Below, piece by piece: positions 1-32,502 of a stretch of DNA of 32,502 nt. Under the pieces are notes generated by a model that was given only the letters and a program-made list of their open reading frames with translations, searched no databases and had not been told where the DNA came from. The stretch is from a virus. Position numbers and translations under genes: made by a program. Position 1 is the first letter of the stretch. Every line of letters begins with the position of its first letter. The DNA lies in the IMG/VR virus record IMGVR_UViG_3300027861_000123, positions 1-32,502 of that record. One strand, 5' to 3'.

Positions 1-1417
1 CCCTCAACATCTGATGATAATAATGTTGTTCACTATGTAACTTATTCAGGTAGTGATGGAATGATATACTTTCGTGGTTCTCCAAATGTTAATGCTTCAA
101 TAGACAACGTATCAGTAAAAGAGGTTGGGCAAGATTGGCAAACTAACTATACAGGTGGTGTAGGTGCAGGTTGGTCTATTACAGATAAGTTAAATTTTGA
201 AAACGCAAATGGTGGTTCTGCACAATTAAATGTTTTTGAAATAGGTAAAATTTATAAAATAACTGTAGATTATGTTTTCACATCAGGTACAAGATTAATA
301 CTACCTTATGATGGAAGTAATTTTCCTTCAGGTGGAGTAATAACAACAACAGGTTCTGTTAATGGTTACACTTACTATTACACACCAAATAGTACAACTT
401 TACTTATTTATTCTGATGGTAATGGTAATGGTTCAGTAGACAACATATCAGTCAAAGAAGTAGGGCAGGGATGGACTATAGGAGGTGATGATATAACAAT
501 AGATGATAGTAAAGCTAGTTTTGTAAATGCTGATACAAATTCAGATTATATACAACAAAACAATGTAGCAGTAGTAGGAAGAACTTATAAAGTTAATTTT
601 GATATTTCTAATTTAGGTGTAGGAGAAAGTGTAAAATTAAGATACCCTTTTCAAAACACTAGTGCTAATGCAAATGGGAGTTATTCTTTTGTAGCAGAAG
701 CAGCAGATACACCTTTTAGAATAACACCTGCTTCTACTAATGGTACTTTTGACATAGACAACATAGTAGTACAAGAACTAAAGCACGATGCAACAAACCT
801 TATGCTTAATGCAGGTGCTTATCAGTCAGCTAATCCACTAATCACTTCTACTAAGAGTATGGAGTTTGATGGTACAGATGATTATTTAGAAGTTGGAGAT
901 GTAGGAAGTGTTAAATCTATGTCTTTTTGGTTTAATCCTGATAATAATATAACTGCTGCTACAACTAAAGAACAATTATTTGGTTTTAATACTTCATATA
1001 ATGGTATTAGGTTAGGTGCAGCTACAGGTTTAATAACAGGAGAAACATTGACAGTTATAGAAAGTGGTGGTAATTCTGGAAGAACTGCTACAACTAAAGA
1101 ATTTGATGCAGGTAGGTGGTATCATATAGTTATAGCTTGGAACGAAACTGCTACATATTTTGACATTTATGTAGATGGTGTATTAAGTACAGATATAGTT
1201 TATAATACTTATACATTAGCAAATTGGACTAATTTTAAAATTGGTGTAGGAAATAATTTAACTGATGAATTTAATGGAAAAATAACAGAAGTAGGTAATT
1301 GGGATAGAACACTTACTGCATTAGAAGTAGCATCACTATACAATCAAGGTATGCCTACTAATCTACTTGTAAATAGAAACGACTATCAGTCAGGTAACCC
1401 TACAGTATTTAATACTA
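1..1417. repeat. Left end of contig overlap; counterpart of 31068-32502
   Basis: Positions 1-127 are identical base for base to 31068-31194, with the first mismatch at 128 (G) versus 31195 (C). Positions 1319-1417 are identical to 32404-32502. Between them the two copies are patchy: near-identical around 750-930 and clearly diverged in 136-430, 480-740 and parts of 930-1318. The two segments are 1417 and 1435 bp, so the difference of 18 keeps the reading frame. I read this as a circular genome whose contig ends carry two alleles of one gene, not as a true terminal repeat. A tandem duplication is possible but less likely. Confidence 0.8.
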
Positions 1418-9323: not shown

Positions 9324-9331
9324 TATATTTG
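9324..9331 (+). promoter_or_regulatory. Early promoter, Bacteroidetes-type -7 element
   Basis: TATATTTG is a perfect match to the Bacteroidetes TAnnTTTG -7 consensus, in the only sizeable gap before the early gene block. The ATG at 9336 lies only 4 bases after the element, so the transcript would start at or very near the start codon and be leaderless or nearly so. I do not see a clear TTTG -33 box at the expected distance. Confidence 0.6.
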
Positions 9332-9335
9332 CAGT

Positions 9336-9539
9336 ATGAAAACAATAATTAACAAAAAAAATCAAGAAGTAATTAGAATAAATTCTGCTCAATTTACTTT
9401 ATTAGTAGTTGGCGAAGGGTGTTCTTTAGTTGATATTATAGATACTAAAAATAAAACTTTGACAGTAGCTAGAGTAAAAGCTACAGAATGGATTTCTTTA
9501 GAGATTTTTGTTAAGAATTACTTTGGATATAAATTTTAA
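9336..9539 (+). CDS. First early gene, unknown function
   Basis: This 67-residue protein is read from the ATG at 9336. An in-frame TTG upstream at 9321 overlaps the promoter and is rejected. The sequence has an alternating hydrophobic pattern (RINSAQFTLLVVGEGCSLVD, then KNKTLTVARV), suggesting a small beta-rich fold. No known motif was recognised. As the first gene behind the early promoter it may act in host takeover or regulation, but that is only positional inference. Confidence 0.6.
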   Translation: MKTIINKKNQEVIRINSAQFTLLVVGEGCSLVDIIDTKNKTLTVARVKATEWISLEIFVKNYFGYKF

Positions 9540-9555
9540 TAAAAAACAAAAACAA

Positions 9556-9693
9556 ATGGTATTAGAAAAACGTAAGTTAAGATTAGTAAGTAAAAGATTT
9601 AAAAATATATTAAAAAATATAATAGCTTTTATAATTGTAAGTATAGGATCAGTAGGTTTATTAATGTTGGGTGGTTTATTAGATAAAATATAA
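9556..9693 (+). CDS. Small single-span membrane protein
   Basis: This 45-residue protein has a basic N-terminus (MVLEKRKLRLVSKRFKNILK) followed by one hydrophobic span of about 20 residues (IIAFIIVSIGSVGLLMLGGL). The start is the ATG at 9556; an upstream in-frame extension reaches into the preceding gene and is unlikely. The basic-then-hydrophobic layout predicts an inner-membrane protein with the N-terminus in the cytoplasm. Its stop overlaps the next ATG (TAATG). The function is unknown. Small early membrane proteins in phages often act in superinfection exclusion, but nothing here shows it. Confidence 0.55.
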   Translation: MVLEKRKLRLVSKRFKNILKNIIAFIIVSIGSVGLLMLGGLLDKI

Positions 9694-10058
9694 TGGATAG
9701 AATACCTACACCTACACCACCAACTAAAGAACAATTAGTTGAAATGCAAAAGCAACACGAAAGAGAAAGACAAGAAAGACTATTAACCTATGATAATACT
9801 AAGGTAGAAGCTAAGTTAGTATATTATAAAGGCTGGATAGCAACAACAGGTACACACTCTGTATTAGAAAAATTATCTTCTAAATTTGCAGATATAAAAA
9901 GAGGTACAAATTCTGTTGTTATGGTAGGAACTGTTAGACAAAGATGTGCAAATGATACAATAGATAATATCACAGGTACATATTCTTTAAACCTTACAGA
10001 TGATATGTTAGAAGCATATAAAGAAAACAATAATCAATTATTAATAATAAATAAATAA
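9693..10058 (+). CDS. Hypothetical early protein
   Basis: This 121-residue protein overlaps the previous stop (TAATG). The N-terminus is proline-rich (PTPTPPTKEQ) and then charged and helical (QLVEMQKQHERERQERL). The remaining 80 residues look like a mixed alpha/beta domain with VEAKLVYYKGWIATTG. It sits directly before the SSB-like gene, so a replication or host-interaction role is possible. I do not recognise the family. Confidence 0.6.
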   Translation: MDRIPTPTPPTKEQLVEMQKQHERERQERLLTYDNTKVEAKLVYYKGWIATTGTHSVLEKLSSKFADIKRGTNSVVMVGTVRQRCANDTIDNITGTYSLNLTDDMLEAYKENNNQLLIINK

Positions 10059-10060
10059 AT

Positions 10061-10525
10061 ATGAAAACGAGTAAAATCAAAACTGTAGTTAGTATAAAAC
10101 CACATAAAAATAGTTATGGCGAAACCTTTTACCATAATTTAGAAATGGAAAATGGAGATAAGATCAACATAGGTAAAAAGAAAGAGCAACAAGTAGGTTG
10201 GGAGTTAACCTATGAAATTACAGAACAAGGACAACAAGAGTATAATAAAGCTAAAGCAGTTGCACCTGAATCTTTTAATAAATCTAATAACTTTACTCCA
10301 TCTAATTCTTCTAATGATGATAGACAATTACTTATTGTAAAACAGTCAAGTATAAAAGCAGCAGTTGAATTTGATAATCAATGTACTATTGAAGATATGT
10401 TAAAAAATGCTGAAATAATTAAGGACTGGGTAATGGGTACTGATGTACAAAAGAAAGTAGATAAGGTAGCTAAGAATTTTAACGATAAGTTTGCAGGTAC
10501 AACTCCTGATGATTTACCTTTTTAA
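10061..10525 (+). CDS. SSB-like single-stranded-DNA-binding protein
   Basis: This is a 154-residue protein. Residues 1-60 have the short beta-strand pattern expected for an OB-type fold (VVSIKPHKNSYGETFYHNLE, NGDKINIGK). A polar Asn/Ser linker follows at about 70-90, then a helical segment. The C-terminus ends DDLPF, very close to the acidic DDDIPF tip through which bacterial SSB recruits replication and repair proteins. I infer that it coats phage ssDNA and may mimic the host SSB tip. It lies just before the DnaA-like and HTH replication genes, which supports this. It is not a canonical SSB by sequence. Confidence 0.6.
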   Translation: MKTSKIKTVVSIKPHKNSYGETFYHNLEMENGDKINIGKKKEQQVGWELTYEITEQGQQEYNKAKAVAPESFNKSNNFTPSNSSNDDRQLLIVKQSSIKAAVEFDNQCTIEDMLKNAEIIKDWVMGTDVQKKVDKVAKNFNDKFAGTTPDDLPF

Positions 10526-10527
10526 TT

Positions 10528-11043
10528 ATGACAGATAGAGAAAAATTTGAAACCATTTGTGACCTTACTACTAACACAGTAGGGTTGCAACAAGGTTCTT
10601 TAGCTTATAAGACTAGAAAGCAAGAGATATTAGTACCTAGAATGGTAGCTACTGTAATAGGTAGAATAAGTAAAGACATACATCCTACTATAATTGCAGA
10701 TATAATTAATAAGGATCGTACTTCTGTAATACATTATATGAAGTATCACAAATCTAATTATGCAAGTTTTCCAGTTTATAGAGATACTTTTAATAAAGTT
10801 TGGAAAGCATATAATGAACTAGAAAAGATAAAGATAGTATTTGCAGATAAAGAACAAATGATAAGACATTTATTAGATGCAGGTATTAAGATTGTAGCTA
10901 AGCCACAAGTAAAGATTAAAGTATTATGTGGTAAGTATAAATACTTAGTGCCTACTACCTATTTGGATTTCTCAAATAATATTGATATAATTAAGAACTC
11001 ATTAAAACATTATGATTACTCATACGACATTATAACAATATGA
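10528..11043 (+). CDS. DnaA domain-IV-like DNA-binding protein
   Basis: This 171-residue protein starts at an AATT-ATG context. Residues about 27-80 (YKTRKQEILVPRMVATVIGR, then PTIIADIINKDRTSVIHYMK) have the layout of the DnaA C-terminal DNA-binding helix-turn-helix, whose signature is a basic loop followed by DHSTVIH. There is no ATPase domain and no Walker motif, so this is a stand-alone DNA-binding module. The C-terminal 70 residues look like a separate small domain. It probably binds phage or host origin sites. Placement between the SSB-like and HTH replication genes fits replication initiation. The 3' end overlaps the next start by 4 bases. Confidence 0.6.
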   Translation: MTDREKFETICDLTTNTVGLQQGSLAYKTRKQEILVPRMVATVIGRISKDIHPTIIADIINKDRTSVIHYMKYHKSNYASFPVYRDTFNKVWKAYNELEKIKIVFADKEQMIRHLLDAGIKIVAKPQVKIKVLCGKYKYLVPTTYLDFSNNIDIIKNSLKHYDYSYDIITI

Positions 11044-11654
11044 ACGAAACACCAAACTATTATGCAATAATACCTGCCAACGTAAGGTATGCTGATCTAA
11101 AACCTAATGCTAAACTATTATACGGAGAGATAACTGCTTTAAGTAATAAGCACGGATTCTGCTTTGCATCTAACAAATACTTTGCAGAGTTATATAAAGT
11201 AAATAAAAATACAATTAGTTCTTGGATTTCTGATTTAAAAAATTACGGATTTATAACTGTAAAGATAGAACGTAATGTAAATAACCAAATCACGAAAAGA
11301 TGTATAGGTATACTGAAAAAGATGGATAACCCTATACACGAAAAGCTGAAGTATAATAATACAAGTATTAATACTACAAGTAATAATATATCTATAAAAG
11401 AAAAATTTGAAAATTTGGTTATGTTTTTTGATTACCCTAAAGAAATGAAATTAGACTTTATTAATTACTGGACAGAAAAAAGTTCTGATAGATTAAATGC
11501 TAAAATGAGGTATCAGAAACAAGCTACCTTTGATGTTAAGTTGCGACTGGATCGTTGGGCGAAAAATTCTGCTAAGTGGAATACAAAGAAAGCAGGTACA
11601 TCTAAATTAGATGCACAGATAGATGAGTGGCAAAAGGCAAAGAGTTTACTATGA
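11040..11654 (+). CDS. Helix-turn-helix replication initiator-like protein
   Basis: This is a 204-residue protein. Residues about 5-90 form a winged-helix domain (YYAIIPANVRYADLKPNAKL, then FAELYKVNKNTISSWISDLK), the form seen in phage replication proteins with HTH_36 domains. A low-complexity Asn/Ser/Thr linker (about 103-118) leads to a helical C-terminal domain with FINYWTEKSSD and FDVKLRLDRWAKN, as in phage DnaD/replisome-organiser-type proteins. It probably marks the origin and loads the host helicase through the C-terminal part. Its start overlaps the previous gene and its stop overlaps the next ATG (ATGA). Confidence 0.7.
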   Translation: MNETPNYYAIIPANVRYADLKPNAKLLYGEITALSNKHGFCFASNKYFAELYKVNKNTISSWISDLKNYGFITVKIERNVNNQITKRCIGILKKMDNPIHEKLKYNNTSINTTSNNISIKEKFENLVMFFDYPKEMKLDFINYWTEKSSDRLNAKMRYQKQATFDVKLRLDRWAKNSAKWNTKKAGTSKLDAQIDEWQKAKSLL

Positions 11655-11854
11655 TAGATGAGTATAAGGAGAAACTATACTTAGAAAAGTTATATAAAAA
11701 AAATACTATAGATTTGGATAATTATTTTAAGTATAGTGGTAAGTTAGAAGTTGGTAACAAATTTAAAAAGGTAACAGAGGAATATACTTATAAGTTAAGT
11801 TGTTACATAAAAAATGATATGAGTAAATACAAATTAAAAAACTATAGAAAATGA
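11651..11854 (+). CDS. Small hypothetical protein
   Basis: This 67-residue protein is read from the ATG that overlaps the preceding stop (ATGA). An in-frame upstream extension to 11627 lies inside the initiator gene and is less likely. It is lysine- and tyrosine-rich with a predicted helical N-terminus (YKEKLYLEKLYKK). No motif was recognised. Translational coupling on both sides suggests it is expressed with the replication genes. Confidence 0.5.
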   Translation: MIDEYKEKLYLEKLYKKNTIDLDNYFKYSGKLEVGNKFKKVTEEYTYKLSCYIKNDMSKYKLKNYRK

Positions 11855-12060
11855 AAGAATTAGATTTTAACGAAAACATTATAGAAGATTTAAATTTAAC
11901 TGAATTACAAATCTTAAATATTATTTCTAAATGGTACACAAATGGTATGATGCACGATATTATATGGGATTGTGAGTGTAGAGAATTAGATGAAATAGTA
12001 GAAGATTTATTTTTTGAAAAATTAGAAGAAGAAAATTTAATTAGAAGTATAAAATTATGA
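11851..12060 (+). CDS. Small acidic hypothetical protein
   Basis: This 69-residue, strongly acidic protein (IIEDLNLTELQILNII, later CECRELDEIVEDLFFEKLEE) is predicted to be mostly helical. The middle, LQILNIISKWYTNGMMHDII, could be a small helix-turn-helix without an obvious basic recognition helix. It overlaps both neighbours by 4 bases. The function is unknown. The acidity would suit a protein-binding inhibitor, but nothing else supports that. Confidence 0.5.
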   Translation: MKELDFNENIIEDLNLTELQILNIISKWYTNGMMHDIIWDCECRELDEIVEDLFFEKLEEENLIRSIKL

Positions 12061-12425
12061 AAACACTTCAAGAAGAAAATATTAAGGAACTAACAGAAAA
12101 GGTTTTAGACTTAGTAGCTAAGACTTCAGTAGAGTTAGGACACAGAGCAGATGCTAAAACAATGGCTTCATTATCTAAGATACTAGCAGAGGATTTACAA
12201 AAAGAGAATAGATTTAGAAGAATGACATTTAACCAAATACAAGATGCTTTTCATATAGGGGTAAGATATTGTGAGTTTGATCCTTTTTTAAATATAAAGA
12301 CATTTTTTAGATGGATTATTAAACATAAGCTAAAATTAAATGATGCTTACTATCAAGTACATACTTTAAACAAAAATCCACAAGAAGTACCTTTTTATCA
12401 AGAACCTAAAAAACTATTAAAATGA
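12057..12425 (+). CDS. Conserved phage replication-region protein
   Basis: This 122-residue, predicted all-helical protein has a central block FRRMTFNQIQDAFHIGVRYC and FFRWIIKHKLKLNDAYYQ. I remember short proteins with the pattern F..I..AF..GVR and a following RWI segment beside initiator genes of flavobacterial phages, where a helicase-loader or replication-accessory role is suspected. No Walker motif is present, so it is not an AAA+ loader. It overlaps the next gene by 4 bases. Confidence 0.5.
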   Translation: MKTLQEENIKELTEKVLDLVAKTSVELGHRADAKTMASLSKILAEDLQKENRFRRMTFNQIQDAFHIGVRYCEFDPFLNIKTFFRWIIKHKLKLNDAYYQVHTLNKNPQEVPFYQEPKKLLK

Positions 12426-12700
12426 AAACAATAACTATAACTGAAAATGAAATAAGTAGTTCTATAGATGCAATTAAATGGCATTTAAAAAACTATGGAC
12501 ATATAACAAGTTTACAAGCTATTAAATTATATGGTGCTACACGATTAGCTGATATAATATATAAGTTAAAGAAACAAGGTTATACTATACATACAACTGA
12601 TTTAGAATTTACTACTAGATTTGGTAGGAAAACAACAGTAGCTAAATACTTATACTTTAAACCTAAACCAACATTTGAACAGAAATTAATATGGGGGTAA
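12422..12700 (+). CDS. Small helix-turn-helix protein (HTH_39-like)
   Basis: This is a 92-residue protein. Residues about 14-60 read WHLKNYGHITSLQAIKLYGA, then TRLADIIYKLKKQGYTIHT, which is the typical layout of HTH_39 winged-helix proteins common in phages. It probably binds DNA as a regulator, perhaps of the early promoter. The C-terminal 30 residues would form the wing and a short tail. It overlaps NinG by 10 bases in a different frame. Confidence 0.7.
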   Translation: MKTITITENEISSSIDAIKWHLKNYGHITSLQAIKLYGATRLADIIYKLKKQGYTIHTTDLEFTTRFGRKTTVAKYLYFKPKPTFEQKLIWG

Positions 12701-13104
12701 AGAAACCAGTAAGCAAACTTAAGAAAGAGTTAGACAAATGGTTTAGCTTATACATAAGATTAAGAGATGCTACAGATATGGGTGTTGCTCAATGCTTTAC
12801 TTGTGGCAAAATAGATCATTACAAGAAACTACAGAACGGACACTTTCAATCTCGTAGGCATAATGCTACTAGATGGGATAATAAGAATTGTCAAGTACAA
12901 TGTGTTAAGTGTAATATGTTTGGACAAGGAGAGCAATATAAGTTTGGAATGTATTTAGATGCTAAGTATGGATTAGGAACTTCTGAAGAATTAGAAATAT
13001 TATCTAAACAACCTTTTAAAATTAGCAGGATTGATTATGTAAATTATATTAGTTATTACAAAGACCTTGTTAATAAAATAAAAAAGGAAAAGAGTATAGA
13101 ATGA
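12691..13104 (+). CDS. ninG: NinG/Rap-like recombination nuclease
   Basis: This 137-residue protein has the zinc-binding and nuclease layout of the lambda NinG (Rap) family: C35-x2-C38, then NGHFQSRR with His51, then C71-x2-C74-N75, all preceded by a basic helical N-terminus. In lambda, Rap is a structure-specific endonuclease that cuts recombination intermediates. Its length is shorter than lambda NinG, as is usual in Bacteroidetes phages. It belongs to the early operon, overlapping both neighbours, and with NinB at 14984 forms a small recombination set. Confidence 0.8.
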   Translation: MGVKKPVSKLKKELDKWFSLYIRLRDATDMGVAQCFTCGKIDHYKKLQNGHFQSRRHNATRWDNKNCQVQCVKCNMFGQGEQYKFGMYLDAKYGLGTSEELEILSKQPFKISRIDYVNYISYYKDLVNKIKKEKSIE

Positions 13105-13481
13105 ATAATTTTCTATATTTGAATATGACTAAACCTATATTTGCAAATACTACACACCAAATAGTTGTTAATGATTATTTAAACTTAATGCTAACATTTG
13201 CAAAAGACATATCTACTAAAGCAAAGTTTGAAAATTTTAAAGAGGTTTTAGATTGTGTTTTAGAATATCACAACAGTTACGGAGAAGATGTAAATGGTGG
13301 TAACTGGAATGATTGGTTAATGATAATACCTATTAATACTTCAGTAATGGTTAATGGATATTTTGCAGGAATACAAAGTAAAGGTAATTTAGAAATAGTA
13401 AGGTCTTACAAAGTTTTGTTAGATAATGCGTTAGAGGTTTTGGTAAATGATTTACGAGAAATAGAATACAATAATGAATAA
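13101..13481 (+). CDS. Hypothetical early protein with possible internal start
   Basis: This 126-residue protein overlaps the NinG stop (ATGA). A second in-frame ATG lies at 13125, 3 bases behind a perfect TATATTTG element (13114-13121), the same arrangement as at the early promoter. The shorter form would lack only the first 8 residues. The protein looks helical with a conserved-looking centre (EYHNSYGEDVNGGNWNDWLM). The family is not recognised. Confidence 0.55.
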   Translation: MNNFLYLNMTKPIFANTTHQIVVNDYLNLMLTFAKDISTKAKFENFKEVLDCVLEYHNSYGEDVNGGNWNDWLMIIPINTSVMVNGYFAGIQSKGNLEIVRSYKVLLDNALEVLVNDLREIEYNNE

Positions 13482-14037
13482 AGTATATGAAGCAGTAGCA
13501 GATTGTAGAAAGACATTTGTAGAGATGTCCTTTGCTTTTACTCACGATATAAACGAAATAGAAGAAGCAGTACAGGAATTAATGTTATATTTTATGCAGA
13601 TGAATCCCTCAGTATTAGAAAGTATTTTTAAGAAAGATGGACAGAAGGGATTAATAAGATATGGTGCAGTAGTTTTAAGAAGAAGTTTTACAAGTCCTAG
13701 AAGTCCTTATTATTATAAGTATAAGAAATACTACACTAACTTAGATGCACAAGCAAGTACATTAACTTACGACATAACAGAGAGTGGAGAAACATCTAAT
13801 GAAAAGAATCTATACAACATACCTAATCCTGAAGAATATAAACAATGGCAAAAGCTAGAACTTATAGATCAAGCACTAGAAAATGTTTACTGGTATGATG
13901 CTTCTGTATTTAAGTTATACTACTATGAAGGTAACACATTAACAGGACTTGCTAAAAAGACAGGCATAAGTAGAAACAGTCTTTTTACGACAATAGACAA
14001 AGTAAGAGAACAACTTAAAGAATTGTTAGATGAGTAA
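13474..14037 (+). CDS. Sigma-factor-like transcription protein
   Basis: This 187-residue protein is built like a small (ECF-type) sigma factor. The N-terminal half, around residues 25-75, contains EIEEAVQELMLYFMQM, similar to the region 2 helix that starts -10 recognition, followed by a basic stretch (VVLRRSFTS, YYYKYKKYY). The C-terminal half, about 130-185, has the region 4 helix-turn-helix: ALENVYWYDASVFKLYYYEG, then LAKKTGISRNSLFTTIDKVR. Its last gene-proximal position before the late genes, and the repeated non-host promoter motif upstream of those genes, suggest that it directs late transcription. The sigma call rests on pattern only. It could also be an HTH regulator of the phage-activator type. 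Its ends overlap both neighbours by 8 bases. Confidence 0.6.
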   Translation: MNKVYEAVADCRKTFVEMSFAFTHDINEIEEAVQELMLYFMQMNPSVLESIFKKDGQKGLIRYGAVVLRRSFTSPRSPYYYKYKKYYTNLDAQASTLTYDITESGETSNEKNLYNIPNPEEYKQWQKLELIDQALENVYWYDASVFKLYYYEGNTLTGLAKKTGISRNSLFTTIDKVREQLKELLDE

Positions 14038-14431
14038 TTTCTTTGTTAAAGATGAGGTGTATCAAGAACGTATAGCATTATGTAGAGAGTGCGTATATTA
14101 CTTTAAACCTACAGGTACTTGTAAAGTCTGCTTATGTTTTATGAAAGTAAAAGCTAGGATAGGAGTAATGGAATGTCCTCAGAAGTATTGGGGAAAAACA
14201 ACAGAAGTAGAAAGACCTGATGACATACCACAAGAACTAATAGAAGAATGTTTATTAATTTGGGAGGATGTAAAGACAGGAGTAGCTAAGAACGTAACAG
14301 TAAAAAAGAAAATGATAGAATTATATAATACTATATATAATGCTAACTATAAAACTACAAGTAACTGTGGTTCTTGTTTAAATAGTTGCTATCACGGAAT
14401 AAGACAAATAGTAGAAAAATATAAAACATAA
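14030..14431 (+). CDS. Zinc-ribbon protein
   Basis: This is a 133-residue protein. The N-terminal domain carries C18-x2-C21, C31-x2-C34-x-C36 and C49, a layout typical of a zinc-ribbon seen in many phage accessory proteins (LCRECVYYFKPTGTCKVC). A second Cys pair occurs near the C-terminus (NCGSCLNSCYHG). The middle is helical and acidic. The partner is unknown. The 8-base overlap with the sigma-like gene indicates coupled expression, so a link to transcription is possible but unshown. Confidence 0.6.
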   Translation: MSNFFVKDEVYQERIALCRECVYYFKPTGTCKVCLCFMKVKARIGVMECPQKYWGKTTEVERPDDIPQELIEECLLIWEDVKTGVAKNVTVKKKMIELYNTIYNANYKTTSNCGSCLNSCYHGIRQIVEKYKT

Positions 14432-14434
14432 AAG

Positions 14435-14674
14435 ATGAAAAATAAGATACCTGATTATTATATAGGAAAGAATTATAAATACGAAGCTAGAAAAGTAATA
14501 TCAGATTGGGAACTAAACTGGAATGTAGGTAATGCAGTAACGTATTTACTAAGAGCAAACTTTAAACATAATTCTCCTGAAGAATGTATAAAAAAAGCTA
14601 TACACCATTTAGAGTTTGAGTTAGAGGAGTTAGATCAGCAGAAGAAAAAGAATGTAAGAATTAGTCATATATAA
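14435..14674 (+). CDS. DUF3310-like protein
   Basis: This 79-residue protein matches the DUF3310 pattern: a tyrosine-rich start, YKYEARKVISDWELNWNVGN, then AVTYLLRANFKH and a helical end with CIKKAIHHLEFELEEL. The family, common in phages, has no confirmed activity, although annotations sometimes call it a nucleotide kinase. Its stop codon forms the first bases of a long hairpin (14671-14732). Confidence 0.7.
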   Translation: MKNKIPDYYIGKNYKYEARKVISDWELNWNVGNAVTYLLRANFKHNSPEECIKKAIHHLEFELEELDQQKKKNVRISHI

Positions 14675-14732
14675 AGGAGAGTAGGCATAATGCCAAAATA
14701 ATTTATTAAATGTTTTTTATGCTCTCCTTTAT
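14671..14732 (+). terminator. Long intergenic hairpin after the DUF3310 gene
   Basis: ATAAAGGAGAG (14671-14681) pairs with CTCTCCTTTAT (14722-14732). Inside it GCATAA (14685-14690) can pair with TTATGC (14717-14722) after a 4-base bulge, leaving a loop of about 26 bases. The stem begins in the last codon and stop of the gene. The tail is only weakly T-rich, so it may be an attenuator or processing site instead of a strong terminator. Confidence 0.5.
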
Positions 14733-14747
14733 TTTAAAACAAAAACT

Positions 14748-14984: not shown

Positions 14985-15367
14985 TGAAGTTTGTAATACA
15001 CGATAACAAAGACAAGATGCAATTAGTAAACTATTTAAAAGATATAGAAAGTCCTTACACAGTTGATGTAAAGAAACATAGAAACACAAGGTCTAACGTA
15101 CAAAACAATTATTACTGGAAATGTATAGTACAAGTATTAGCACAAGAGTTAGGTTACTTTAATGATGAGATGCACGACATACTAAGAGCAAAGTTTTTAA
15201 ATGAGTGGGAGATGGTAGAGATAAACAATAAGAAAATAGGAATAAATAAGATAGTAAGTACAACATCTTTAAATACAAAAGCATTTGAAATATATGCAGA
15301 CCAAATTAGAATATGGGCTTTGTCTGATCTAGGGATAAGACTAATGTTACCAAATGAATATCAATAA
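14984..15367 (+). CDS. ninB: NinB-like recombination protein
   Basis: This 127-residue protein has the NinB family blocks: RSNVQNNYYWKCIVQVLAQE, LGYFNDEMHDILRAKF, STTSLNTKAFEIY and IRIWALSDLGIRL near the end. In lambda, NinB (Orf) is a recombination mediator that binds ssDNA and helps RecA load. The last codons also hold the upstream half of the late promoter motif (15349-15354). It ends the early block before the terminase genes. Confidence 0.75.
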   Translation: MKFVIHDNKDKMQLVNYLKDIESPYTVDVKKHRNTRSNVQNNYYWKCIVQVLAQELGYFNDEMHDILRAKFLNEWEMVEINNKKIGINKIVSTTSLNTKAFEIYADQIRIWALSDLGIRLMLPNEYQ

Positions 15368-15380
15368 TTTCTATTATATA
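15349..15380 (+). promoter_or_regulatory. Late promoter motif copy 1 (terminase)
   Basis: ACCAAA, 15 bases, then TCTATTATATA (15370-15380), upstream of the small terminase gene at 15413. It differs from the best copies only by one base in the upstream half. The upstream half is inside the NinB coding end. It lacks TAnnTTTG. Confidence 0.6.
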
Positions 15381-16984: not shown

Positions 16985-17016
16985 TTAAACTAAATAACAA
17001 TAAATTCTATTATATA
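16985..17016 (+). promoter_or_regulatory. Late promoter motif copy 2 (tail operon)
   Basis: TCTATTATATA at 17006-17016 is a perfect downstream half, 2 bases before the ATG at 17019. At the 15-base spacing the upstream half reads TTAAAC, a poor match to ATCAAA. Transcripts would be leaderless or nearly so. Confidence 0.5.
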
Positions 17017-17018
17017 TT

Positions 17019-17663
17019 ATGCAGGTAAACATTAAGAAAGATGGTGAGCAAAACACTTACAATCTAATTAACAGTTGGGATGATGTAACACTTGACAAAT
17101 GGGCTAAACTTATAGATAGTAAAAGTAAGTCAAAGACCAAAGAAGCATTAGATACAATTAGCTTGTTATCTGATATACCTAGAAAACTCGTAAAAGAGTT
17201 AAGTATAAATGATGTATCTAATATCTTAAACAGAGTAGCTGCGTTGCAGAACAAAGCTAGTAGTAGGTTAAAAAGAATAATAAAGGTAGATGATGTAGAG
17301 TATGGCTTTCATCCTGATCTATCAGAAATTACTCTTGGAGAATATGCAGATATTGAAACCTACATACAAAACGGAATGGAAAAGAACTTAGCTAAGTTAA
17401 TGGCAGTTCTTTACAGACCAGTAGTAGAGAAGAATGGTAAATACTATTCTATTGAAGCATATAATGGTAGTGGTGTACGGATGAGAGCAGAGAAGTTTAA
17501 GAAGATGAAAGCATCAGATGTAAATAGTTCATTGGTTTTTTTTTGGACTTTAGGCAACGAACTATCGACAATTTTGCCGTTGTATTTGATGGAACGGATG
17601 GAGGAAGTGAAACAATCACTACTGATGAAAAGTTCGCAACAAAGTGGTCTTGGTTCGGAGTGA
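17019..17663 (+). CDS. Tail assembly chaperone-like protein (0-frame product)
   Basis: This is a 214-residue protein. Residues about 15-100 are helical with SLLSDIPRKLVKEL. A conserved-looking block follows: EYGFHPDLSEITLGEYADIE, then LAKLMAVLYRPVV and SLVFFWTLGNEL near the end. I recall this family in flavobacterial phage tail modules, where it is followed by a second overlapping frame. By analogy with lambda gpG/gpGT, it should bind the tape measure protein during tail assembly. A run of nine T at 17536-17544 allows a -1 frameshift into the frame ending at 17788, giving a protein of about 256 residues. It is the first gene of the tail operon. Confidence 0.65.
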   Translation: MQVNIKKDGEQNTYNLINSWDDVTLDKWAKLIDSKSKSKTKEALDTISLLSDIPRKLVKELSINDVSNILNRVAALQNKASSRLKRIIKVDDVEYGFHPDLSEITLGEYADIETYIQNGMEKNLAKLMAVLYRPVVEKNGKYYSIEAYNGSGVRMRAEKFKKMKASDVNSSLVFFWTLGNELSTILPLYLMERMEEVKQSLLMKSSQQSGLGSE

Positions 17664-25772: not shown

Positions 25773-25804
25773 ATCAAATATTAATTAATTAAATCTATTA
25801 TATA
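25773..25804 (+). promoter_or_regulatory. Late promoter motif copy 3 (protease operon)
   Basis: ATCAAA (25773-25778), 15 bases, TCTATTATATA (25794-25804), then 2 bases to the ATG at 25807. Both halves match the consensus exactly. No TAnnTTTG is present. Confidence 0.65.
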
Positions 25805-25806
25805 GT

Positions 25807-26709
25807 ATGAAAAGAAAAGCAACTAAGATTGTAGAGTTAGTAATAGCAGATGATAGCGAAGAATTAACAATAGATGCTATAAGTCTTGTAACTTCTCCTG
25901 CAATAATGGAAAATTTTGTATTCTTTGGTAAAGAGAATAACAACTTAACACTAGCTAAGGTAGATGAGGAAAAACGTATGTTAGTTAGTCCTGCATTAAT
26001 ACCTAACAAACAAATATTTAGGTATGATCCTAATACTGATTCTAACTATTATGTATATTTCTCAAAAGAAACAGTAAGACAAGCTAGTGAGTTATATCTA
26101 AAGCATAACAACCACCACAAAGCTACATATCAACACGAAGATAGAGTATCAGGTGTATTGACTATAGAGAGTTGGATAAAAGAGGGAGAACAAGACAAAT
26201 CTAAGTTATATGGCTTTGACTTACCTGATGGTACTTGGTTTGTTAAGATGAAGATTGAGAATGATGAGATGTGGAATAAGATAAAAGATGGAGAACTAAA
26301 AGGTCTAAGTATAGAGGGCTACTTTATTAATAAAATGGAAAAAATGGGTAAACAACAATTTTCAAACGAAGATATAAGAGAAGCAATAAAAGAATTGTTA
26401 AGTGTGCAGAAAATAGAGTTAGGTGCTATAGATGATTTTGAAAAGTTATTTGATTCTACATTAGATAAAGATTTAAAAATATCTAATACTTTAATAGATG
26501 ATTTAAGAAAAGCTGAAGTATCTTATGCTAAAATTGAAAGTGATTATATAGCTTCTTTAAAATTAGGGGAAAAATTAATAGTACAAGCTAAAGATTTAGG
26601 TGTAGATTTACCACAAAAAATAAAAAACAAAGTAGAAAGTGCAAAAGTTACTATAAAAGATATACAAGCAAATATTAAAAATATTAAAAAGATGTATAAT
26701 TTATTATAA
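25807..26709 (+). CDS. XkdF-type prohead protease with scaffold-like extension
   Basis: This is a 300-residue protein. Residues about 1-180 match the XkdF-like serine protease domain (Peptidase_S78_2 type): SLVTSPAIMENFVFFGK, MLVSPALIPNKQIFRYD, HNNHHKATYQHEDRVSGV and IKDGELKGLSIEGYF. The histidine-rich block and the GLSIEGYF block are the likely active-site parts. Residues about 185-300 are helical and charged (EDIREAIKELLSVQKIELGA, ending IKKMYNLL) and resemble the following gene. The protease matures the prohead by cutting scaffold and capsid; the tail could act as its internal scaffold. This is the first gene of an operon with a late promoter motif. Confidence 0.75.
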   Translation: MKRKATKIVELVIADDSEELTIDAISLVTSPAIMENFVFFGKENNNLTLAKVDEEKRMLVSPALIPNKQIFRYDPNTDSNYYVYFSKETVRQASELYLKHNNHHKATYQHEDRVSGVLTIESWIKEGEQDKSKLYGFDLPDGTWFVKMKIENDEMWNKIKDGELKGLSIEGYFINKMEKMGKQQFSNEDIREAIKELLSVQKIELGAIDDFEKLFDSTLDKDLKISNTLIDDLRKAEVSYAKIESDYIASLKLGEKLIVQAKDLGVDLPQKIKNKVESAKVTIKDIQANIKNIKKMYNLL

Positions 26710-27100: not shown

Positions 27101-27132
27101 ATCAAACAAACAATAATTAATTCTATTATATA
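27101..27132 (+). promoter_or_regulatory. Late promoter motif copy 4 (scaffold/capsid)
   Basis: ATCAAA (27101-27106), 15 bases, TCTATTATATA (27122-27132), 12 bases before the ATG at 27145. Both halves are exact. It would drive the scaffold and major capsid genes. Confidence 0.65.
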
Positions 27133-29391: not shown

Positions 29392-29423
29392 ATCAAACAA
29401 AAACGACTTTTTTCTATTATATA
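29392..29423 (+). promoter_or_regulatory. Late promoter motif copy 5 (virion/adhesin operon)
   Basis: ATCAAA (29392-29397) begins at the base after the terminator T-run. It is followed by 15 bases, TCTATTATATA (29413-29423), and the ATG at 29438. Both halves are exact. Confidence 0.65.
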
Positions 29424-30197: not shown

Positions 30198-32502
30198 ATG
30201 TTAGCATTAGCAAACAAGCTAACCCTATCAACACAACCTACCTATAGGTTTGTAAATAAGTATTCTATTGACTTTGATGGAGTAGATGACTGTATAGTTA
30301 CTGATGGTGCAGATACTGTAGCACAAAACACTACATATTCTTTTTGGTGTAAGTCTAGCGAAACAGGGCAAAATAGAGGTGTGTTTGGACACGGTAACGC
30401 ATCTGAGGGTGGTTTTCATTTTAATTGGAGTGGAGACAGACCATTATTGTATTTAGGTGTAGGATATTATGTTTATTGGAATGATACAACTGCTATTGAT
30501 GATGGAGAGTGGCATCATTGGGTAGTATATTCAGAACCAAATAATTTAAGTAATTGTAAATTGTATTGTGATGGAATTTTACAAACAGTAAACCTAATAG
30601 AAACATCAGGAAGTTTAGAAGCATACACAGAATCATTAACTATAGGTGGCGACCAACAATCAGGTGGTAATTACTTTGAAGGACAGATAGATGAGTTTGC
30701 AGTTTACGATAGAGAACTCACACAAGCAGAGATTACTCGTATGTATAACACCTATTATAGCCCTAATAGAATTGCTAATTCTAACTTTGCTCAGATAGGA
30801 AACGAAGAAGTAACTAATGGAGATTTTAGTCAGATAGGTAGTGAACTTGTAACTAATGGCAACTTTGCAACAGATAGTGATTGGACAAAAGAAACAGGTT
30901 GGACAATAGCTAATAGTAAAGCAGTTGCTAATACTACAGGTACACAACAAATATATCAAAATGTAGGGCTTGTAAATGGAAAAACATACAAGATAAGTTA
31001 TTCTGTTTCTGATTTTGTATCAGGTGCTATGTATTTATCATTAAATGGTAATGGCTTTATAAGTCCACCCTCAACATCTGATGATAATAATGTTGTTCAC
31101 TATGTAACTTATTCAGGTAGTGATGGAATGATATACTTTCGTGGTTCTCCAAATGTTAATGCTTCAATAGACAACGTATCAGTAAAAGAGGTTGCGCAAG
31201 ATTGGAGTTTAGGTGTTACTTGGTCTATGGGAGATGGTGTTGCAAATTTTGAAGGTAGTGGTTCTACAACTTCTGCATTAATTCAAACTCAGAATATAAA
31301 TTTACCTAGTGGTAAAAGCTACAATATAAAATTTGATATATCTAATGCTACAGGTAACGCATCACTATGGATAGGTAATGACGTAGGTAGTGTTAATTAT
31401 TTTGGTACTAGCTATGTTAATCGCCCAAATGGAAGTTATGATTTGTACTTTACAATGCCTAGTACACAAACTTCATTATCTTTTTATGCTAATCAGTCAG
31501 GAAGTAATTTCACAATAGACAACATATCAATCAAAGAATTAGGGCAGGGGTGGAGTTTTGGCGCAGGGTGGTCTACAGATGGAACTAAGGCAATAGCAGG
31601 TGCAGGTACTCAATCTAACCTAACAACTGTTAATAACCCACTTACTGTTGGTACAACTGTAAAAATTACATATACAATAAGTGATTATGTAGCAGGTACA
31701 TCAAAAGTTTTTTTTGGTGGTGGTTTAGCAGGTACAGTTAGAAATGCAAATGGAACTTATACTGAAACAAATGTAGTTACTACTAATGGTAGTTTTCTTA
31801 TTCAAAAAAGTTCTGATGGAGATTTTAGCATAGACAACATAGTAGTACAAGAACTAAAGCACGACGCTACAAACCTTATGCTTAATGCAGGTGCTTATCA
31901 GTCAGCTAATCCTTTGATCACTTCTACTAAGAGTATGGAGTTTGATGGTACAGATGATTATTTAGAAGTAGGAGATGTAGGAACTGTAAAATCTATGTCT
32001 TTTTGGTTTAATCCTGATGCAGCAATAACTTCTTCTTCTTCTTCTGAAAGATTATTTGGTTTTAATACAGTATCTCCTTCTGCTTTTGCTTTAGGCATAC
32101 AAACAGGTTCTGCTACAAGTAGTTTATCAGGAGAAACTTTAACAGTATTACCTGACAGTACAAGTAGAACTGCTACAACAAAAGAATTTGATGCAAATAG
32201 GTGGTATCATATTGCAATAGCTTGGAATGAAACTGCTAGTTATTTTGATATATATGTAGATGGTGTTTTAAGTACAGATTTAAATACAGGTACACATACT
32301 TTAGCAAATTGGACTGGTTTTAGAATTGGTGGTGCATTAGACCAATCTACAGAATTTAATGGACAAATAACAGAAGTAGGTAATTGGGATAGAACATTAA
32401 CATCATTAGAAGTAGCATCACTATACAATCAAGGTATGCCTACTAATCTACTTGTAAATAGAAACGACTATCAGTCAGGTAACCCTACAGTATTTAATAC
32501 TA
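30198..32502 (+). CDS. Giant modular receptor-binding/adhesin protein, N-terminal part (3' end missing at contig edge)
   Basis: This frame starts with ATG 30198 and is open to the last base (768 codons plus 1 base). The first domain (about nt 30261-30750) is LamG-like: SIDFDGVDDCIV, then WHHWVVYSEPNN and YDRELTQAEITRMYN. Jelly-roll modules follow (NEEVTNGDF, SELVTNGNF), with IDNVSVKEV near 31164 and IDNISIKEL near 31520. A second LamG-like domain begins near 31935 (FDGTDDYLEV) and contains WYHIAIAWNE. From 31068 on it is the allelic counterpart of 1-1417. Joined in frame to 1418-4464 it would give about 1783 residues. The protein is probably the main host-recognition structure. Confidence 0.85.
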   Translation, partial: MLALANKLTLSTQPTYRFVNKYSIDFDGVDDCIVTDGADTVAQNTTYSFWCKSSETGQNRGVFGHGNASEGGFHFNWSGDRPLLYLGVGYYVYWNDTTAIDDGEWHHWVVYSEPNNLSNCKLYCDGILQTVNLIETSGSLEAYTESLTIGGDQQSGGNYFEGQIDEFAVYDRELTQAEITRMYNTYYSPNRIANSNFAQIGNEEVTNGDFSQIGSELVTNGNFATDSDWTKETGWTIANSKAVANTTGTQQIYQNVGLVNGKTYKISYSVSDFVSGAMYLSLNGNGFISPPSTSDDNNVVHYVTYSGSDGMIYFRGSPNVNASIDNVSVKEVAQDWSLGVTWSMGDGVANFEGSGSTTSALIQTQNINLPSGKSYNIKFDISNATGNASLWIGNDVGSVNYFGTSYVNRPNGSYDLYFTMPSTQTSLSFYANQSGSNFTIDNISIKELGQGWSFGAGWSTDGTKAIAGAGTQSNLTTVNNPLTVGTTVKITYTISDYVAGTSKVFFGGGLAGTVRNANGTYTETNVVTTNGSFLIQKSSDGDFSIDNIVVQELKHDATNLMLNAGAYQSANPLITSTKSMEFDGTDDYLEVGDVGTVKSMSFWFNPDAAITSSSSSERLFGFNTVSPSAFALGIQTGSATSSLSGETLTVLPDSTSRTATTKEFDANRWYHIAIAWNETASYFDIYVDGVLSTDLNTGTHTLANWTGFRIGGALDQSTEFNGQITEVGNWDRTLTSLEVASLYNQGMPTNLLVNRNDYQSGNPTVFNT
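31068..32502. repeat. Right end of contig overlap; second allele of 1-1417
   Basis: 31068-31194 equals 1-127 exactly and 32404-32502 equals 1319-1417 exactly, with diverged stretches between. The conserved parts are mostly inter-domain linkers and the ends of modules; the diverged parts are beta-sandwich cores. Both copies keep the same frame and the same domain order. Confidence 0.8.

Follow-up and report, generated by a model that had tools for sequence, protein, structure and literature searches.

The locus examined here raises the question of whether a small protein encoded among the early genes of a phage is a sigma factor that turns on the late genes, as an initial annotation had proposed. 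The DNA analyzed is a whole IMG/VR virus entry (IMGVR_UViG_3300027861_000123; 32,502 bases; hereafter the window), in which the main genes all lie on the + strand and intergenic gaps, called mechanically, amount to 2.5% of the sequence. With early and late assigned by gene content, an early block of replication and recombination genes (9336–14674), which include NinG and a phrog 'replication initiation' gene, is followed by a stem-loop, NinB, TerS, TerL, and then head and tail genes. The candidate gene lies in the early operon 5' of TerS and TerL, as first described, and reads from an ATG at 13474 to a stop at 14037, overlapping a same-strand gene on either side (Table 1). With regard to the terminator-like stem-loop, CTCTCCTTTA is present in gaps of 47 of 85 loci.

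Table 1. Features of the window discussed in the text and the evidence for each (promoters are putative)
Feature	Position	Strand	Evidence
Host-type -7 element TATATTTG, 5' of early operon (9336-14674)	9324..9331	+	TAHHTTTG consensus, PMC6847099
Phage sigma-70/ECF-like sigma factor gene (almost certain), 187 aa	13474..14037	+	TIGR02937, Foldseek, family hhalign
Region 2 part, residues 1-88 (predicted)	13474..13737	+	AlphaFold2 pLDDT about 90 (residues 1-70); region-2-only profile match above decoys
Region 4 part, residues 119-184, HTH LAKKTGISRNSLF (predicted)	13828..14025	+	Sigma70_r4 sub-threshold matches; hhalign
Terminator-like stem-loop closing early operon	14671..14738	+	RNA fold -19.7 kcal/mol, z -4.4
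Putative late promoter P1, 5' of TerS 15413 / TerL 15663	15350..15380	+	Motif, shuffles, register
Putative late promoter P2, 5' of 17019, after TerL	16986..17016	+	Motif, gap after TerL, register
Putative late promoter P3, 5' of 25807, head maturation protease-like	25774..25804	+	Motif, register
Putative late promoter P4, 5' of 27145 and of 27813 (probable capsid gene, from its position)	27102..27132	+	Motif, register
Putative late promoter P5, 5' of 29438 and tail genes	29393..29423	+	Motif, register

Analysis of the protein with the NCBIfam sigma70-ECF model TIGR02937 revealed a match over residues 13–185 (E 3.1e-9) that covers regions 2 and 4, and the same model detects every one of the 45 sequences in the wider family. 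The score of 36.7 bits is below the curated cut-off of 42.9, and the protein is therefore termed ECF-like and given no named ECF group. Single-sequence searches of Pfam, PHROGs, and the PDB returned sub-threshold region 4 matches only, the Pfam region 2 model did not match the window protein itself, and Sigma70_r4 gave a sub-threshold match in 27 of 27 close relatives. Using hhalign, the narrow family alignment A1 identified region 4 only, and both regions were found after widening to the superfamily. The joint family profile aligned with five cellular ECFs over regions 2 and 4 (prob 97.2, E 3e-11, 148 columns) and, in sequence-based searches, retrieved sigma factors of known structure (3mzy, E 1.3e-8; SigL; SigW). 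Since this profile includes clear sigma factors, the N-terminal part of the window family was tested alone; its region 2 matched the N-terminal parts of the sibling phage sigmas with prob 71 and E 3.6e-5, compared with a best prob of 3.7 and a best E of 0.012 among 60 column-shuffled decoys.

An AlphaFold2 model built from the 45-sequence family alignment A3 features a region 2 part (residues 1–70, pLDDT about 90), a C-terminal HTH domain, and a disordered low-confidence linker at about residues 89–118. Regions 1.1 and 3 are absent and only a short linker separates the two parts of the chain, which is an ECF-type layout. In Foldseek searches of the PDB with two models of the protein, the 50 best matches are all sigma factors, headed by the ECF SigL (6dv9; E 6.6e-5, prob 1.00, whole chain). 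TM-scores over the full chain reach only about 0.35, a low value that we attribute to the loosely modeled orientation of the two domains, the linker (residues 89–125) being left loose as well. The region-2-like block and the region-4-like HTH that were originally noted, in that order, both lie in predicted helices: QELMLYFM (residues 34–41) within helix 26–42, in the part that also holds the VQE core (residues 33–35) and the region 2.3/2.4 segment YGAVVLRRSFTSPRSPYYYKY, and LAKKTGISRNSLF (residues 159–171) within the helix-turn-helix 156–163/167–184. A structure lacking region 2 had been named as evidence against a sigma factor; region 2 is instead predicted with confidence, and comparison with ECF sigma factors by profile and by fold points the same way. 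On these grounds the protein is almost certainly a sigma-70/ECF-like factor.

The protein is 72–100% identical across its best 80 viral contigs and has 380–557 relatives in IMG/VR. A search of INPHARED gave no true relative. The gene at 13101–13481, whose end overlaps the first bases of the sigma gene and which adjoins it in phage contig L085 too, has no recognized family match; its product could possibly be a sigma partner or an anti-sigma. Directly 3' of the sigma gene, 14030–14431 encodes a cysteine-rich protein that is DUF6171-like (E 1e-5) and matches phrog_13558 (E 1e-12). A stand-alone DnaA C-terminal (domain IV) helix-turn-helix is encoded at 10528–11043 (Bac_DnaA_C, E 4.5e-6) and in L085, and may bind the phage origin.

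The TerL of the window is most similar, among cultured phages, to those of the Nonlabens phages P12024S/L (61% identity), followed by Riemerella phages (45%). The hosts of P12024S/L are Flavobacteriaceae, and this kinship together with a TAnnTTTG promoter indicates that the marine phage from which the window derives probably has a flavobacterial host. The sole match to a genome contig, L085 in a MAG named Pseudooceanicola, is itself a phage contig of the same clade that appears to be misbinned, and it therefore gives no host; in L085, NinB and TerS are separated by a DNA methyltransferase-like gene. The ends of the window (1–1417 and 31068–32502) are 84–99% alike in pieces and both fall in one LamG-type tail gene, a likeness that probably reflects circular permutation of a genome of about 31.07 kb, the overlapping ends differing through strain variation.

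The five copies of a late motif reported in the initial annotation were recovered as exact TCTATTATATA at 15370, 17006, 25794, 27122, and 29413, all on the + strand and all in late intergenic gaps, with none on the - strand of the window; whole-window dinucleotide shuffles contain 0.2 copies on average and at most 2. Across 30 non-redundant sites drawn from the wider family, two blocks keep a constant register, T[AC]AA[AC]TAAA at -21 to -13 and TTCTATTATATA at -2 to +9 relative to the C. The motif thus does have a second part at a fixed distance, as had been suggested, and the spacing is compatible with the proposed ECF-like one, with the register of the -35 core unsettled. Of 180 sites, 83 have the next start codon 12 nt downstream of the C, as is also seen for CTATTATATA in the window (for example 17007–17019 and 25795–25807); many of the predicted late messages would therefore be almost leaderless. 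In window-type loci such as L021, L023, and L032, the motif near P1 (5' of TerS) can be read in inverted orientation as well, as TCTATTATATAATAGA, and so resembles a divergent site.

A different promoter class is found on the other side of the sigma gene. The -7 element of Flavobacterium is TAHHTTTG (PMC6847099). In window-type phages whose loci span at least 9 kb, this element stands close to the gap end in 44 gaps located 5' of the sigma gene and in 0 located 3', whereas CTATTATA occurs in 4 gaps 5' and 111 gaps 3'. P12024S is arranged in the same way: its early gaps contain TAnnTTTG elements, and its late genes are preceded by AAAACAAA..CGTTAATA. The late genes thus carry a promoter class of their own and the early genes the host class, which is the arrangement expected for a phage late sigma factor.

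A scan with the P12024S TerL revealed about 80 further, more distant phages, many of which have a sigma-like ORF 0.8–3.8 kb upstream of TerL. A profile seeded with P12024S gp33, which itself passes the Pfam Sigma70_r2 cut-off, reaches the window family through region 4 (window E 1e-8; L057 E 1e-10). No second member of the window sigma family was detected in the window or in P12024S, and none was found in Riemerella phage RAP44 (TerL about 44%). Related phages carry diverged sigmas at the syntenic place together with different -10 elements (CGTTAATA, ACGTTTATA, TTGTTTATA). Directly 3' of TerL, the form of the homologous promoter varies with the sigma subfamily: CTATTATATA in the window type, GTATTATATA in L149, AGTTATATA in L146, ACGTTTATA in L140 and L118, TTGTTTATA in L111/L114, ACGTTATATA in L133, and TTGTTTTTA in L127. 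For clades with short contigs, the motif was read directly from this one gap. When the gap just after TerL is left out, the table of own versus foreign motifs is nearly diagonal, with CTATTATA in 52 window-type gaps versus 0 others, CGTTAATA in 13 P12024-type gaps versus 1, and ACGTTTAT in 3 versus 0. All copies of the motif in one genome change together, which argues for a trans-acting reader.

Co-divergence of sigma and motif is partly confounded by shared ancestry, and close TerL pairs are informative here. L149 and L159 have TerL proteins that are 74% identical, sigmas that are 22% identical, and different -10 elements, while L129 and L135 share 94% of TerL and 64% of the sigma, with TTGTTTATA and ACGTTTATA, respectively, as the -10; TerL identity is therefore insufficient to explain the motif. 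Between L114/115/129 and L118/119/135/139 (best TerL pair 94%), the recognition helix SMRKM.RESGISFTSIYN and the AAACAAA -35 block are identical, whereas region 2.4 (MNLHNKK versus ADL[SL]RVK) and the -10 (TTGTTTATA versus ACGTTTATA) differ. This is what the standard division of labor predicts, where sigma2 reads the -10 and sigma4 reads the -35. In most clades, an aspartate at the region 2.4 position accompanies CGT, and N, Q, or S its absence (6/8 versus 1/7; about p 0.03, counted by hand and post hoc), with L109, L146, and L141 as exceptions; a residue-to-base code in region 2.4 is a tentative lead only.

The profile and promoter data also bear on what else the protein could be. A RinA/ArpU-type DNA-binding late activator would possess a sigma4-like HTH and an N-terminal part that is no working region 2, and would recruit the host holoenzyme. 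Region 4 is indeed the strongest single-sequence Pfam signal, phrog_36 'transcriptional regulator' matches 30 of the 45 members, and a position before terS is typical of RinA/ArpU. This is nevertheless improbable, because region 2 is predicted at high confidence and detected above decoys, TIGR02937 spans both regions, and neither a RinA nor an ArpU model appears in the ten NCBIfam matches obtained for the protein at E up to 0.1. Furthermore, the -10 itself changes with the sigma subfamily, not just the upstream block.

The behavior of the -10 is relevant, too, to the idea that the late motif is read by some other factor, either an alternative sigma of the host or a different DNA-binding protein of the phage, and that the sigma-like protein acts otherwise, for example by displacing the host primary sigma. 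The phage does encode further DNA-binding candidates (HTH_39 at 12422 and the DnaA-like protein at 10528), and the link between motif and protein is indirect; yet between phages of very similar TerL the -10 and the phage sigma change in concert, there is little reason for a host factor to track a phage gene, and no further member of this sigma family turned up in the window or P12024S, so this explanation is improbable. A Q-like antiterminator acting on RNA polymerase at late promoters, to which a weak phrog_79 Q-like match (E 0.19) might point, can be virtually discounted given that fold and profile are those of a sigma factor, that the late genes are preceded by several separate promoters instead of forming a single operon, and that the late -10 elements are unlike the host type. 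The position of the motif and the co-divergence of sigma subfamily and -10 element instead give strong, if indirect, evidence that the phage sigma reads the late motif, which we consider likely.

A switch is proposed where the host primary sigma would read the host-type TAnnTTTG promoter at 9324 and so start the early operon, from which the sigma factor would be made with its ECF-like sigma2–linker–sigma4 layout. This factor would bind host core RNA polymerase and steer it to at least five late promoters of the form T[AC]AA[AC]TAAA - 10 bp - TTCTATTATATA, with region 4 reading the -35-like block and region 2 the -10-like block, thereby switching on the packaging, head, and tail genes. In P12024S or P12024L, the 5' ends of late transcripts would correspondingly fall a few nt downstream of TTTCCGTTAATATA, and those of early transcripts downstream of TAHHTTTG. 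We infer core RNA polymerase binding, promoter recognition, and timing. The partition of promoters around the sigma gene and the co-divergence both favor the early-to-late switch first suggested, and we consider the full scheme likely on this sequence and model evidence.

Phage-encoded late sigma factors are already known. T4 gp55 and SPO1 gp28 and gp33-34 redirect host RNA polymerase to later genes, as proposed here, although their sequence families and promoters differ from those of the window and T4 late transcription needs sliding-clamp co-activation. RinA, ArpU, and Ltr of Gram-positive phages are encoded adjoining terS, control late genes, and have a sigma4-like HTH; the window protein differs in having region 2 and lacking an NCBIfam RinA/ArpU match. 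Cellular ECFs (group 4), such as M. tuberculosis SigL, E. coli sigma-E, and the Bacteroidota GFO_1088 type (NF058625), share the sigma2–linker–sigma4 order, the VQ[DE] core of region 2, and the fold. A cognate anti-sigma in the operon is usual for ECF sigmas, whereas the window sigma is phage-borne, has no recognized anti-sigma, and is diverged in region 2.3/2.4 with an extra TSPRSPYYYKY stretch; its late -10 is A+T-rich and without the CGT of the ECF type. A close counterpart is P12024S gp33 (YP_006560373.1), which profile searches link to the window family and which resembles the window protein in its place before TerS/TerL and its two-domain layout, in a phage that repeats its own late motif through the late gaps. 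However, gp33 is only about 19% identical to the window protein, the late -10 is CGTTAATATA, and the record gives no late-promoter function. The remark that such a switch had not been described stands in part: within the partial literature searched, both the early-to-late switch of these phages and the co-diverging series of sigma–promoter pairs appear undescribed, but gp33 already bears the GenBank note 'Sigma-70 region 2', so one relative is already annotated as sigma-like.

Few studies have addressed gene timing in Bacteroidota phages, whose hosts have an unusual main sigma. We lean towards a broader picture in which a large and almost uncultured clade of Bacteroidota phages carries fast-diverging ECF-like sigmas, each with its own late -10, and in which changes in region 2.4 took the window subfamily away from an ECF-type CGT -10 and towards CTATTATATA, so that the clade would offer a series of naturally matched pairs. 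The motif and the sigma could serve as an easy late-gene marker in uncultured phages, and the pairs as orthogonal sigma–promoter sets for Bacteroidota. Sigma–promoter pairs that change in concert over many lineages would allow direct and cheap tests of region 2.4 specificity and, if the picture is true, the recognition code could be read from the matched series.
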